Assembly: GCA_016342495.1 (NCBI GenBank)
Contig: JAEIOG010000034.1
Location: 1-46,013, forward strand
Reading direction: 5' to 3'
Source of the DNA: Phycisphaerae bacterium
Lineage (GTDB): Bacteria; Planctomycetota; Phycisphaerae; Sedimentisphaerales; SM23-30
Length of the DNA: 46,013 nucleotides
The notes beneath the pieces were generated by a model. That model did not search any database, was not told where the DNA came from, and saw nothing but the letters and a program-made list of their open reading frames with translations. How positions within the stretch are numbered: position 1 is the stretch's first letter; every line of letters begins with the position of its first letter. Shown here in pieces: positions 1,923 to 32,262 of this stretch. Both the position numbers and the translations under genes were made by a program.

Positions 1923-2294
1923 TCAATGTTTTTTTCTAATAAAAACTAATACTGATGCTGCTCCGATAAAATCAGCACTCCAGTCGTCTATACCGGGTGA
2001 GCGATTGACAAATTGCTGGGTATATTCATCGATTGCCCCAAAAATTGCAAGAGCAAAAAGAATGCTAATTTTGAGCTTGAACACATCAGTAATCGCAAAG
2101 GAAACGAAAATCAGCCAGGCCAAAATGGCATATGCCCCCATGTGCAATAGCTTATCCCAGGTTATTATCGTCAGCATGCTTTCGGTCATCATCTTTTTGG
2201 GGATATGGGTGGCAATAACAAGGGCTATAGCAAAAGCAATCGTAAGCCAACGAAGGTTTATGGTTATTTTATCTTGCTTTGATTTATCTATCAT
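1923..2294 (-). CDS. VanZ-family small membrane protein
   Basis: A 123-residue protein with four hydrophobic segments: about 15-30, 48-68, 75-90 and 107-120. The 'WDKLLHMGAYAILAWL' motif (about 46-61) and the later 'GAIDEYTQQFVNRSPGIDDWSAD' region (about 86-108; glutamine-rich loop then Gly-Ile-Asp-Asp-Trp) are characteristic of VanZ-like proteins. These are integral membrane proteins of unclear general function; the founding member gives low-level teicoplanin resistance. Genes of this family often lie at the ends of Planctomycetota and Bacteroidota exopolysaccharide loci, which fits here. No regulator or resistance genes surround it, so a resistance role is not supported. Confidence 0.8.
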   Translation of the reverse strand: MIDKSKQDKITINLRWLTIAFAIALVIATHIPKKMMTESMLTIITWDKLLHMGAYAILAWLIFVSFAITDVFKLKISILFALAIFGAIDEYTQQFVNRSPGIDDWSADFIGAASVLVFIRKKH

Positions 2295-2316: not shown

Positions 2317-2409
2317 CTATTGTATGATTAGCCAGGCATCAATCCCAAAACGATAGTCATTGGCTTAGGCATCTTCAATTTTGCCGGTGAAGAAAACCAT
2401 AATTACTGC
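2317..2409 (-). pseudogene. 3' remnant of a WxcM/RmlC-like sugar cupin gene
   Basis: The minus-strand frame reads MVFFTGKIEDA, then TAA, then ANDYRFGIDAWLI. This aligns almost residue by residue with the C-terminus of the intact cupin gene at 8412-8840 (MVFSTGKIADASNDDYRFAL DTWPI). The nucleotide sequences are also visibly alike. Only about 27 codons survive, an in-frame stop interrupts them, and the 5' side ends at the stop of the LRR gene. It has no start signal. This is a gene relic, showing that a second copy of this sugar-modifying gene existed at the distal end of the locus before a deletion or the insertion of the LRR gene. Confidence 0.75.
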
Positions 2410-3413
2410 CTCAGCCAGAGCCCTGCCAGTATCATCAGGTCTTCCAGGTCAACTTTGCCATCACCGCTCATATCGGCGCCATCGCAAAAGTTATTATCCT
2501 GACTGCAATCATCCCGGGCGAAGTTTGCGCTGACAACTGCAAAGTCAGCCAGATCGCCATAGCAGTCTGCCGTTAAGACATTGGCATTGGCATCATAGCT
2601 AAATACCGTTAAGCCGGGGTTAGCCTCCTGAATCACAGCGATCTGGAAGCAATAAAAAATACTGTTTAACTGATTGCCATTGATATAGAAACTGGTCAAA
2701 GCGTTAAGATTGCCAAATTCCTCCGGCAGTGAGTTTAACTTATTGCCATAGAGGCTCAATTCGGCTAAACTCACCAGATCGCCGAAGGCTTTGGGCAAAG
2801 CGACAAGCTGATTATTGCCAAGATCCAGCCAGTTCAGGTTTACCAGTTGGCCAAAAGCATCCGGGAGAGTCTCCAGTTCGTTATTCAGCAGGTACAGCCC
2901 GGTCAGACTGGTTAGAGCACCTATTTCCTCGGGTAAAGCCGACAGTTCATTGCTCTTAAGTCCCAGCCAGGTAAGATTAGTAAGATTGCCGATTTCCGCC
3001 GGCAGAGTGCTAAGCTGATTATTATCGAGATACAGCCCGGTCAAAGCGGTAAGATTGCCGATTTCCGCCGGGATACTGCTCAAAGCATTGTACATAAGCG
3101 ATAGACGGGTCAAACTGGTAAGGTTACCAAGTTCAGCGGGAACACTGGCTAGCTGATTATACCGGACAGAAAGCTCAGTTAAGTTGCTGGCATAGCCAAT
3201 ACCGGTCAAATCGGATATATTTCGAAAATCAGCATTCAAGCTGGTCAACATACCCATATCATCTTCGGTAGGATCATCGATACCCAGACGAATTTCGATT
3301 ATACTTTTCAAGTTGGCATCGGGGAAATAGACCGGGTCACTGCCAGCAGCGATGCCATCAGCAACTATAAAAAGATAGGAAAATATAAAAAATATATAAA
3401 CTGCCTTTATCAT
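2403..3413 (-). CDS. Secreted leucine-rich-repeat protein with dockerin-like C-terminus
   Basis: A signal peptide (about residues 1-22, MIKAVYIFFIFSYLFIVADG) is followed by a short cap region and eight 23-residue leucine-rich repeats of the type 'LTxLxLxxNQLxxLPAEIGNL' (about 70-255). The C-terminus (about 285-336) has a degenerate first half and a clear second calcium loop 'DMSGDGKVDLEDLMILAG', a dockerin type I-like module. The protein should be exported and may bind proteins or polysaccharide at the surface. Start ATG 3413 is preferred: it is preceded by AGGAA, and the longer frame begins with GTG. The repeats are also similar at DNA level, so repeat number may vary by recombination. It sits beside the truncated cupin relic at its 3' end. 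No cohesin partner is visible in the window. Confidence 0.8.
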   Translation of the reverse strand: MIKAVYIFFIFSYLFIVADGIAAGSDPVYFPDANLKSIIEIRLGIDDPTEDDMGMLTSLNADFRNISDLTGIGYASNLTELSVRYNQLASVPAELGNLTSLTRLSLMYNALSSIPAEIGNLTALTGLYLDNNQLSTLPAEIGNLTNLTWLGLKSNELSALPEEIGALTSLTGLYLLNNELETLPDAFGQLVNLNWLDLGNNQLVALPKAFGDLVSLAELSLYGNKLNSLPEEFGNLNALTSFYINGNQLNSIFYCFQIAVIQEANPGLTVFSYDANANVLTADCYGDLADFAVVSANFARDDCSQDNNFCDGADMSGDGKVDLEDLMILAGLWLRQ

Positions 3414-3434
3414 GGAAGAAATTCCTAGCGTCAC

Positions 3435-21891: not shown

Positions 21892-23082
21892 CTAATTTGC
21901 CTCTACCAGCCAATAACTGCTCAAAGCAGCAAAATCAGCTAGATTGACCTTACCATCTTTATTGATGTCAGTACCGGCACAATTAAGTGAACTTGCACAA
22001 TTTGCAGCCAACCAGTAATTGGTCATACGATCCAAATCGGCTAGATTTACAACATCATCACGATTTGCATCAGCTAAAATTGGCAATACCGCCAAGGTCT
22101 CAGCGGCCCAGACATATTCGGTTTGACCATTATTGAAAATACTGTACTGCACAGAGCCATCATTTTCAATACCAGCAGTTAATTTATCCTGAACTGATTT
22201 GAGACGAATTTCCGTAACTGAACCAGCTGATTTTTTTTGCAAGGCAGCAAAGCCCTTAGTTGCAAAAACTGAATCTTCAGTATAGCCGGCGATATCCTGA
22301 ATAAAGCCGCCATTACCATGATCAAAACGCCAGTAAGCACTACCAGCAAAAGTCCCACTTAATACAATATGGCCTTTAAGTAAACCTTCTAATTGATTTA
22401 GTTTAACACCGGTCCAATATGAACCAGAAGGAGCACTTGGATCGACATAAGTATCATCCATCAGACCAGTTTGCACCAAAGCCCAGACTGCAAGACCAAG
22501 GGAACCAACTGGATAACCAGACTGACCATCTTGTATACGTGATAAAACTTCAATCAATCTAACCCGCCAGACATAACGATCAGAGGCATCAACATAAAAT
22601 GCCGCTACTGTGTGATGAGCAATAAAAAACAATGCATCGGATGGATCTTCCTGATCTTCTTCAATCAGATCAATATAACCATCTGTGCCATATTCACTGT
22701 TCTTTACAGCGGCATAAAATACCCCAAGAGCAGTTCGCCATTGATTGATACCAGGATTGGTTGAAACTTCACTTAAGCGAGTCAGAGCATAGGCCTCATC
22801 GCCAAGGAAATTACCGCCAGCGATACTTAAGATAAAATTACCCGCTAACTGCGCTGACGCAAGATATGCCGTGTTACCAGTAATCTGATATGCACGAGTC
22901 ATACCTGGTACAACTGAACCGGTAAAATCAGCTGAACCAGGCCAACTGCCATTAGCATTTTGATTATCCAGAAGATAATCTGCTACAGTCTCCACTGCAA
23001 TTTCAGGGTTTACTGCAAAAGCTGATGTTCCCAATACCAATGTCATTAAGACAACCACATAAATTCTTACCAACTTCTTCAT
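21892..23082 (-). CDS. Secreted alpha/alpha-toroid protein with two dockerin-like repeats
   Basis: A signal peptide (about 1-23, cleavage after 'GTSAFA') is followed by about 300 residues of helical repeats, including 'ADYLLDNQNANGSWPGSADF' near the N-terminus. Gly-Ser-Trp turns of this kind mark terpene-cyclase/prenyltransferase-like alpha/alpha toroids, also seen in polysaccharide lyases and pectate lyase-like proteins. The C-terminus (about 335-396) has two full calcium loops: 'DANRDDVVNLADLDRM' and 'DINKDGKVNLADFAALSSYWL'. Its location inside an EPS export block suggests an extracytoplasmic role on the polymer, perhaps binding or cutting it; no catalytic residues are identified. Tandem leader hairpins precede the gene and a terminator follows, so it is likely transcribed alone. 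AAAGGAG precedes the ATG. Confidence 0.7.
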   Translation of the reverse strand: MKKLVRIYVVVLMTLVLGTSAFAVNPEIAVETVADYLLDNQNANGSWPGSADFTGSVVPGMTRAYQITGNTAYLASAQLAGNFILSIAGGNFLGDEAYALTRLSEVSTNPGINQWRTALGVFYAAVKNSEYGTDGYIDLIEEDQEDPSDALFFIAHHTVAAFYVDASDRYVWRVRLIEVLSRIQDGQSGYPVGSLGLAVWALVQTGLMDDTYVDPSAPSGSYWTGVKLNQLEGLLKGHIVLSGTFAGSAYWRFDHGNGGFIQDIAGYTEDSVFATKGFAALQKKSAGSVTEIRLKSVQDKLTAGIENDGSVQYSIFNNGQTEYVWAAETLAVLPILADANRDDVVNLADLDRMTNYWLAANCASSLNCAGTDINKDGKVNLADFAALSSYWLVEAN

Positions 23083-30092: not shown

Positions 30093-30476
30093 TTAAAACA
30101 ATGTCGGCCTGGATGGACTTCGCAATACCGGTCTGTAGTTAACTACAATCGGCGTATAGCTAGCTGTCCGAATTATTTCGTCGTCAAACTGACGAGTCAG
30201 AAATGTTGCTTCACCTGGGGCTGCAGAATATACTGGTGTATATGCTGTAGACTTGCTTGCAATTATAGGACTACCACTAGCTGAGATTGGCTCTGAGACT
30301 TCAGTCGCCTTCTCTTCCTTTGTTGCAGTAGTTGTTGTGAAGGGATTAAAACGCAGATAGCTAGCTGCTTTCTGGTCAGTTACCTGTGCTCTGCGGACAT
30401 TAAATCTTGCCGCATCAGCACGCTGGGTTATCCCAACTAAAGTGAACACTATCAAAATGATCATCAATTTCTTCAT
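30093..30476 (-). CDS. Small secreted protein, first gene of the EPS operon
   Basis: A 127-residue protein that I do not recognise. A clear Sec signal peptide (MKKLMIILIVFTLVGITQRADA, cleavage near residue 22) is followed by a low-complexity mature part of about 105 residues rich in Thr, Ser, Ala and Pro, with 'NPFTTTTATKEEKATEV' in the middle and a basic end 'RPVLRSPSRPTLF'. No cysteine is present in the mature part, so it is not a lipoprotein. GAGG precedes the ATG. A sigma70-like promoter lies about 90 nt upstream, so this is the promoter-proximal gene, 117 nt before wza. It could be a matrix or export-accessory protein. Homologs may be confined to related bacteria; this is a guess. Confidence 0.65.
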   Translation of the reverse strand: MKKLMIILIVFTLVGITQRADAARFNVRRAQVTDQKAASYLRFNPFTTTTATKEEKATEVSEPISASGSPIIASKSTAYTPVYSAAPGEATFLTRQFDDEIIRTASYTPIVVNYRPVLRSPSRPTLF

Positions 30477-30572: not shown

Positions 30573-30601
30573 AATATACACATATACTCGCGGTTAGTCA
30601 A
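30573..30601 (-). promoter_or_regulatory. Sigma70-like promoter of the EPS operon
   Basis: On the minus strand TTGACT (30596-30601) and TATATT (30573-30578) are separated by exactly 17 bp. Each differs from consensus by one base. The start would be near 30566, giving a leader of about 90 nt before the signal-peptide protein gene. It is the best promoter seen in the window. Confidence 0.65.
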
Positions 30602-30690
30602 CAAAAATACTGGAGAAACTAGTACCCACCCTAGTAATTTATACTTCTGAATAGTCCCCAATTTTCCCAAGCTAACGCAAAAATTAAAGC

Positions 30691-30729
30691 AAAGTTTACT
30701 TTTAAGCATATTATAACAAAGTTAACTTT
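30691..30729. promoter_or_regulatory. Pair of 12-bp palindromes upstream of the EPS promoter
   Basis: aaagttaacttt (30718-30729) is a perfect palindrome and aaagtttacttt (30691-30702) differs from it by one base. Their centres are 27 bp apart, about 90-130 bp upstream of the -35 box. Two like sites upstream of a promoter suggest binding sites for a dimeric activator or repressor of EPS genes. Confidence 0.45.
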
Positions 30730-30778
30730 AAACCTGCAACATCTATTTATGTAAAAAAAAATTAAAATTATAAAAAAA

Positions 30779-31969
30779 TCATCCTATTCTCTTTGCCAGT
30801 TTTGCTGCCAATGTCATATCCTGCTCAACATAAATAAGAGTTGTAGAGATACTAGAATGCCCCAACATCGCAGAAGCCGTTTTAATATCAAACTCCCGCT
30901 CTGCACGGGTTGCTGCAGTATGTCTAAGCTGGTATGGAGTCCACGGCTTATCAATTTTCCCATCATCCATTGCCTGAAGTACCCCATACCTTATTGCTTT
31001 GCGGTAAGTATCTGACATATAAGATTCCCGTAATCTTTCATAGCCGCCGGTCATTTTCTTCTTAACGGCCTTAATTGACTCAACAGGCTTAAACATATAA
31101 TCCTGAGGATCTCTATTCATATAAGGTTTTAATAACCTCTGGGCCTCTGGCCCCAAATATATCTCACGTTTTTTTCCTAAATATGCGGTTTTATGCTTAT
31201 GGTCACCAGTTTTTTTGTCTGTAGGCCTGTAAATCCATACTCCATCAAATCCTTCACAGGATTTTTCAATGTCAATTGGCCTCATAATAACCAGTTCACC
31301 GGGGCGCATTCCAGTTAGCAGCTGGACCTGCACCATTGTCGATATAACCGGTGATACATATTGCAGTGTTGCCTGAACATCTTCGACAGGGACCGGCCTT
31401 ACCGGTTCATGATCAATAGCCTTAGTTCTGCCTTTTTTTAAGGCTTCAACAGTGCGTAATGATTCATATACTGAAGATGGCACCATCTCTTCACTTACGG
31501 CCCACTTGAACATCCTGCGTATTACATTAACCCTGCGATTTATCTCTCTTCTGCAAAGTCTACCACAATCAACCATTTGCTGACGTACACGCTTTAACTT
31601 TCTGGGCCCAAAGTCGCAGGCATTATTCAATGCAAATTCACTTTTAATCAAAGCTCTCATGGACAGTTCAACATTACTAGCTTCACTGGAGGTTTCAGCC
31701 GGATAATATCCCTTGGCAAATTCAATATATATTTTCGCCAGAGTTTTCAAATTGCCTTCAAAAACATTACCTAATTCCTGCCTTTTTAATTCGTTGTCCC
31801 ACACAACCTGTGCCAGATATTTTGCAGTTTCCAGATCAGTGGTGGCAAACACAGCCCCTTCTGGTAATAAAGCACGCGTTACATATTTAACTGTGCCGGG
31901 TAGTTTGTATTTATAGTAGTACCGCTCACCCCTCTTTAATAAAAACCCTCTGTAAGTGAACTTCTTCAA
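30779..31969 (-). CDS. Tyrosine recombinase/integrase
   Basis: A 396-residue site-specific recombinase of the phage integrase family. The N-terminal SAM-like core-binding part spans about 70-160, and the catalytic domain has Arg 222 ('LTGMRPGELV'), Arg 349 ('YQLRHTAATR'), His 371 ('LGHSS') and the nucleophile Tyr 380 ('TTLIYVEQ'). The usual first His of the HxxR box is Tyr here (YQLR, residue 346), a substitution tolerated in some members. It lies about 210 bp from a tRNA-Thr 3' fragment, the expected position for an island integrase. Transcription runs away from the att site towards the EPS locus, whose first gene is about 300 bp further on in the same direction. Confidence 0.9.
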   Translation of the reverse strand: MKKFTYRGFLLKRGERYYYKYKLPGTVKYVTRALLPEGAVFATTDLETAKYLAQVVWDNELKRQELGNVFEGNLKTLAKIYIEFAKGYYPAETSSEASNVELSMRALIKSEFALNNACDFGPRKLKRVRQQMVDCGRLCRREINRRVNVIRRMFKWAVSEEMVPSSVYESLRTVEALKKGRTKAIDHEPVRPVPVEDVQATLQYVSPVISTMVQVQLLTGMRPGELVIMRPIDIEKSCEGFDGVWIYRPTDKKTGDHKHKTAYLGKKREIYLGPEAQRLLKPYMNRDPQDYMFKPVESIKAVKKKMTGGYERLRESYMSDTYRKAIRYGVLQAMDDGKIDKPWTPYQLRHTAATRAEREFDIKTASAMLGHSSISTTLIYVEQDMTLAAKLAKRIG

Positions 31970-32081
31970 TGTTTTGCTCCTTTCAAAAATCTCATATTCA
32001 TAAGTATGAACTATTTTTTTGTCTGAAACCTATGAATCAGAAAAAATTATTGGATTTTTTCCAAAAATTCGCAAAACACCT

Positions 32082-32099
32082 TGTCACATTCATGTCACA
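32082..32099. repeat. Direct repeats TGTCACA, possible integrase arm sites
   Basis: tgtcaca at 32082-32088 and again at 32093-32099, 11 bp apart (one helical turn), lie between the integrase start and the tRNA fragment. Arm-type recombinase sites often have this form. The assignment is a guess from position. Confidence 0.3.
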
Positions 32100-32179
32100 A
32101 TTATCTCAAAAAAATCACCACATTTCATAAAACCTTTGTTAGCAAGCAGTTATGGCAGCCCGGAAACCTACTTTCGGTT

Positions 32180-32221
32180 TTTGTAAGCGGATGGTTGCGG
32201 GTTCGAGTCCCATCACTGGCT
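32180..32221 (+). tRNA. 3' half of a tRNA-Thr(UGU) gene, probable attachment site
   Basis: From the anticodon loop TTTGTAA (32180-32186, anticodon TGT) the sequence keeps exact tRNA spacing: anticodon-stem strand gcgga, 5-nt variable loop tggtt, T-arm gcggg-TTCGAGT-cccat, acceptor strand cactggc and discriminator T. The 5' half is missing: the bases before the anticodon loop do not pair with the 3' strand, and no D-arm is found. The T-stem has one C-A mismatch. This is what a tyrosine recombinase leaves at the far end after integrating at the anticodon loop of a tRNA gene. CCA is not encoded. It is a tRNA fragment, not a functional gene. Confidence 0.7.
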
Positions 32222-32224
32222 TTT

Positions 32225-32262
32225 ATAAACCTGTTTTTATTGACAAAAACGGGTTTTTTTTG
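32225..32262 (+). terminator. Rho-independent terminator behind the tRNA fragment
   Basis: A stem aaacctgttttt/aaaaacgggttt with one wobble pair and a short loop is followed by a T-run. It lies just after the acceptor end of the tRNA fragment, where a native tRNA terminator is expected. This indicates that the DNA to the right is the original chromosomal flank. Confidence 0.8.

Follow-up and report, generated by a model that had tools for sequence, protein, structure and literature searches.

The whole EPS biosynthesis and export locus of this uncultured planctomycete very likely lies inside a single, phage-derived genomic island integrated at a tRNA-Thr(UGU) gene, and the EPS genes were probably brought in as cargo rather than being a permanent component of the chromosome. 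The window, that is, the whole stretch of 46,013 nucleotides analysed here, is the entire contig C198 of a draft genome of 5.42 Mb in 221 contigs. The element runs from position 23065 of another contig, C10, across a multicopy IS to position 32179 of the window (about 9.25 kb on C10 and 32.1 kb in the window, ~41.4 kb in total without the IS). Within the window we distinguish the following features:

1-75: right end of the multicopy IS (75-77 bp common to many contig ends), where the contig breaks
76-182, minus strand: N-terminal half of a cI/XRE-like repressor interrupted by the IS, the C-terminal half being on C10 (32108-32317)
735-1883, minus strand: APH-family protein
1923-2294, minus strand: VanZ-family protein
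2403-3434, minus strand: leucine-rich-repeat (LRR) protein
3860-29975, minus strand: EPS biosynthesis/export locus, ~26 kb
30093-30476, minus strand: 127-aa protein without a Pfam match, the first ORF on the EPS side
30779-31969, minus strand: tyrosine integrase of 396 aa (Pfam Phage_integrase, E 2.9e-13; PHROG integrase, E 4e-38)
32081-32105, plus strand: twin arm-type site, TTGTCACATTCATGTCACAATTATC, 18 bp of which recur unchanged next to the intact tRNA of C10
32180-32222, plus strand: displaced 3' half of tRNA-Thr(UGU), from the anticodon loop to the 3' end (putative attR), 98% identical over 43 nt to the genome's own tRNA-Thr(UGU)
32227-32261, plus strand: terminator-like hairpin and T run after the displaced half

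An earlier note on this DNA had proposed that a tyrosine recombinase next to a tRNA-Thr(UGU) fragment marks the end of an element extending leftwards and carrying the whole EPS locus. Recombinase and fragment are both borne out, and the interval between the intact tRNA and the fragment holds the EPS locus entirely. The intact tRNA-Thr(UGU) is on C10 (23034-23106, plus strand), with tRNA-Glu(CTC) upstream; this Glu-Thr neighbourhood is also found in the relatives G009 and G008 and, more loosely, in G002, so the C10 copy is most likely the native tRNA locus. Comparison with this gene confirms that the fragment starts exactly where the anticodon loop does, the two having the same first base, and the sole mismatch is at position 32192. 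A 38-mer from the tRNA-Thr 3' half, allowing up to three mismatches, occurs at only two places in the 5.4-Mb genome, in the window and at C10:23068-23105 (one difference), while the reversed pattern used as a control occurs nowhere; therefore the match is not due to chance. That the intact tRNA lies outside the window also held, since ARAGORN reports none there; Rfam likewise gives no match, as expected for half a tRNA. The hairpin and T run, already read as a retained terminator, presumably represent the original terminator of the host tRNA.

Both ends also carry paired TGTCAC sites 11-12 bp apart, and an exact 18-bp match, ATTCATGTCACAATTATC, is shared by window positions 32088-32105 and the C10 sequence right of the tRNA (equalled in 0 of 200 shuffles). 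Arm sites at both ends are the signature that would be expected of attL and attR if one attP had been split in two.

The suggestion that an intact tRNA-Thr(UGU) should be sought left of the window leads to C10, which appears to adjoin the window on its left with a single IS in between. C10 finishes with 75-77 bp from one end of a multicopy IS, and the window opens with 75 bp from its other end; this IS is present in about 20 copies, breaks the assembly of this genome and is known here from its ends alone, its interior being absent from the contigs examined. Among the ends collected in the genome (18 left, 21 right), 12 of the 18 left ends find a 3-bp match among the right ends, against an average of 5.8 for displaced flanks and with only 4 of 513 displacements reaching 12, so duplications of 3 bp are probably produced when this IS inserts. 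GAG stands at the end of C10 and again at the start of the window flank, and is seen at none of the other collected left ends. Because three matching bases would arise by chance in 1 of 64 cases and are weak evidence on their own, it is the repressor that bears most of the weight: joined with a single GAG, the flanks form a continuous frame of 105 aa in which residues 7-69 match HTH_19 (E 1.3e-10), whereas the separate halves give E 3e-4 and no match. Phage cI-like repressors align over the junction residue, and none of the other 17 joins continues the domain, leaving C10 as the sole fit among 18 candidate partners. C10 and C198 are thus very probably neighbours with one IS copy between them, an adjacency inferred in a draft assembly and not read. 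The resulting order and orientation is C10(+)-IS-C198(+), with both tRNA sequences on the plus strand.

The phage derivation of the rest of the element is an addition to the earlier reading. The 9.2 kb of C10 to the right of the intact tRNA hold leftward genes of phage type, namely DUF3846, MgsA_C-like, DUF7192, CobS-like AAA, TAGT glycosyltransferase and ParB-like genes. An IMG/VR phage (G061, IMGVR_UViG_3300048587_001107) carries most of these early genes together with a homologue of the window integrase; it differs from the element in having late genes and lacking EPS genes. The closest prophage found is an intact one of 48 kb in a genome of the same family (G001:C8, 21.2-69.3 kb), which sits at tRNA-Pro(CGG) between 45-bp repeats that reproduce the 5' half of tRNA-Pro as far as the anticodon loop. 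It has an integrase about 40% identical to ours at one end, followed by the same early genes and then portal and capsid. The likeness extends to ParB-like, TAGT, MgsA_C-like, AAA and DUF7192 genes, to the crossover in the anticodon loop and to twin arm sites of TGTAGG type, spaced 12 bp apart, with one pair close to the integrase and another at the far end. The G001 prophage differs in possessing helicases, primase, portal and capsid, the element here being without late genes, and in leaving a tRNA 5' half at its far end rather than a 3' half. No EPS homologue was seen in the G001 prophage. In both phages the integrase and early genes lie on one strand, and this joint occurrence of relatives of the C10 genes and of the window integrase places them in the same phage family. 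The 5' half at the far end of the G001 prophage (L083-L085) is the rarer configuration in Islander (PMC4383910). With the AAA protein as query, no relatives turned up among viral contigs. Within the phage part, 7.8 tandem copies of a 35-bp unit (L027, 9810-10082), followed by further small repeats up to 12107, are a possible replication or partition site.

The integrase appears to be intact, with all of the catalytic residues (R222, K260, R349, H350, H371 and Y380) present and its start codon on the side facing the tRNA-Thr piece; with these residues kept, excision would be possible, as a prediction. Its homologues are found mainly in Sedimentisphaerales and other Planctomycetota. Among 80 of them in GTDB, an intact tRNA on the same strand, of many kinds, lies just 5' of the integrase homologue in 54, a tRNA on the opposite strand adjoins it in two, and EPS homologues occur within 10 kb downstream in none. 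The genome encodes two more integrases of this family, beside tRNA-Pro(CGG)/tRNA-Cys genes and beside tRNA-Thr(CGU) (L004 on C178 and L005 on C196), which are probably further tRNA islands. In another genus, a broken integrase of the same family (L203, G002:C272, 14106-15079 in the contig) lies directly 3' of tRNA-Thr(UGU), so the same target was used there too.

The EPS locus is predicted to encode a slime-like surface polysaccharide, with genes for sugar epimerases, a deacetylase, glycosyltransferases, a Wzx-like flippase, a UDP-sugar dehydrogenase and a WecA-like transferase, as well as Wzy-like proteins, a Cps4B-like phosphatase, a Wzc-type kinase and a Wza-type export protein. The APH, VanZ and LRR genes separate it from the repressor. 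On the other side, the EPS promoter had been placed about 200 bp past the integrase stop; this holds as an approximation, the first ORF on the EPS side starting 303 bp away (30476 vs 30779). The DNA at the integrase-EPS and repressor-APH junctions is unique in the genome, so misassembly driven by repeats is unlikely there, and at the edges of the EPS block a search for repeats, direct or inverted, yielded only short A/T-rich matches. The EPS core (Wza, Wzc, phosphatase, Wzy-like and WecA-like) is found in about ten relatives, in conserved order and varied surroundings, and never beside a homologue of the window integrase; therefore the EPS genes are no inherent part of the element. No conserved chromosomal home for them was found in these relatives, where the neighbours mostly differ. 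Since Wzc-like genes exist elsewhere in the genome (C20, C135 and C186), the locus in the window is probably an extra one.

Features of a temperate prophage (integrase, att sites and arm sites) are thus present in the element, while terminase, portal, capsid and tail genes are absent from its C10 and window parts and an intact repressor is wanting, the repressor-like gene being split by the IS. Nor were relaxase or type IV secretion genes for conjugation found among its Pfam-annotated ORFs, in a scan that covered the larger ORFs of the C10 and window parts. With a broken repressor and no packaging genes found, the element is probably a cryptic, prophage-derived island with EPS cargo, although the integrase could conceivably still excise it. 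In the mechanism we propose, the attP of the element bore the 3' half of a tRNA-Thr, and the tyrosine integrase would have recombined it with the tRNA-Thr gene of the host, crossing over at the anticodon loop. On C10 (attL), the tRNA would have been rebuilt from the host's 5' half and the 3' half supplied by the element, while the original 3' half of the host gene, together with its terminator, would have been displaced to the other end as attR (32180-32261). Between the two lie, in order, an arm site, early phage genes, the IS-split repressor, the APH/VanZ/LRR genes, the EPS locus and the integrase. The two att sites, their common arm sites, the contig adjacency across the IS, the family of the integrase and the kinship with phages are evident from the sequence; the EPS genes would have entered between integrase and repressor, carried by a prophage whose late genes were lost as well.

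Other histories could be imagined for the same arrangement. One is a tandem insertion at tRNA-Thr of two elements with shared att specificity, a prophage (the C10 part) and an EPS island that brought a second integrase, later fused by deletion of the middle att site and the late genes; the EPS genes would still be cargo. Such tandem arrays at tRNAs are known (Islander, PMC4383910), and the early genes here do lack the late genes that come next in G001 and G061. Yet there is no third tRNA core in either C10 or C198, and the two ends have matching arm sites, as one attP would give, so we consider this unlikely. It is likewise unlikely that the element is a phage satellite, its late genes swapped for the EPS locus, and packaged by a related helper. 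A second prophage on contig C204 (45.2 kb; L129-L131), with its own integrase, primase, terminase, portal and capsid and with late genes related to those of the G001 prophage, is a candidate helper only. If the satellite reading were true, a complete surface-polysaccharide pathway of ~26 kb would move between planctomycetes by transduction. C204 holds the sole match to the related portal, a match considered as the missing late gene of our element and rejected, C204 being a separate prophage with its own integrase, terminase and capsid. The host genes next to the C204 prophage share 58-61% identity with those on the left side of the G001 prophage, and one gene at the border of the C204 prophage matches PADLOC PDC-S01.

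The EPS genes might instead be resident host DNA, trapped between the att sites by a rearrangement, or the window might be chimeric, the integrase and tRNA half adjoining the EPS locus by accident. The draft genome with its many IS copies would allow for this, the EPS core is widespread in the bacterial order without an integrase, and its linkage to this integrase family is seen here alone. However, recombination between IS copies would destroy both the matching target duplication, which thus disfavours it, and the split repressor frame; the junctions have no second genomic copy that could drive misassembly; and the tRNA copies at both att sites are oriented as in a simple insertion. We regard this as very improbable. 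That the integrase and tRNA half are just a small relic, unrelated to either the EPS locus or the C10 phage genes, is scarcely credible: solo integrase relics do exist beside tRNAs, such as the broken one at tRNA-Thr in G002:C272, but this integrase is intact, and the common arm site, the phage kinship of both contigs and their adjacency speak against it.

Comparison with relatives, all of other genera, brought no empty site to light. A tRNA-Thr pattern search of 58 relatives yielded no site within three mismatches, and a DNA search of relatives from other genera found diverged tRNA-Thr loci without the genes of the window's right flank beside them. More distant relatives have the tRNA-Thr without the element.

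The single phage-derived island we favour resembles those defined in Islander by an intact tRNA, a displaced fragment and an integrase, most of which have a 3' fragment and about half of which are at the anticodon site (PMC4383910). Here too, an intact tRNA and its cognate fragment share a replicon, as judged from the contig join; the 3' fragment lies downstream in the same orientation, a tyrosine integrase lies in between, and the size falls within 2-200 kb. The differences are that its ends are on two contigs joined by inference, that it carries a complete EPS cargo and that packaging genes are missing. SPI-7 of Salmonella Typhi, with the viaB locus for the Vi capsule, is likewise a mosaic island combining a polysaccharide locus with phage parts, but it spans 134 kb, has pilus, transfer and plasmid-replication-like regions, and involves unrelated genes and an unrelated host (PMC6357384). 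Capsule-carrying ICEs of gut Bacteroidetes are also integrating elements that bear a locus for polysaccharide biosynthesis as cargo (PMC6907783); they possess conjugative machinery, whereas none was found here and the backbone is phage-like. Tycheposons, tRNA-linked cargo elements, have been reported from Prochlorococcus and Methylophilaceae (PMC10872708). Polysaccharide loci on integrating elements are therefore already known, and what is notable here is the phage backbone and the host phylum; our literature search on EPS islands in Planctomycetes found nothing relevant.

In summary, the integrase family described here targets many tRNA genes in Planctomycetota, a phylum in which mobile elements have, to our knowledge, received little study. 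The att sites of the element give a testable excision site. Phage adsorption, grazing and attachment are affected by the type of surface polysaccharide, and an entire EPS locus enclosed by the att sites of a phage-derived planctomycete element suggests a path along which such loci could be exchanged.
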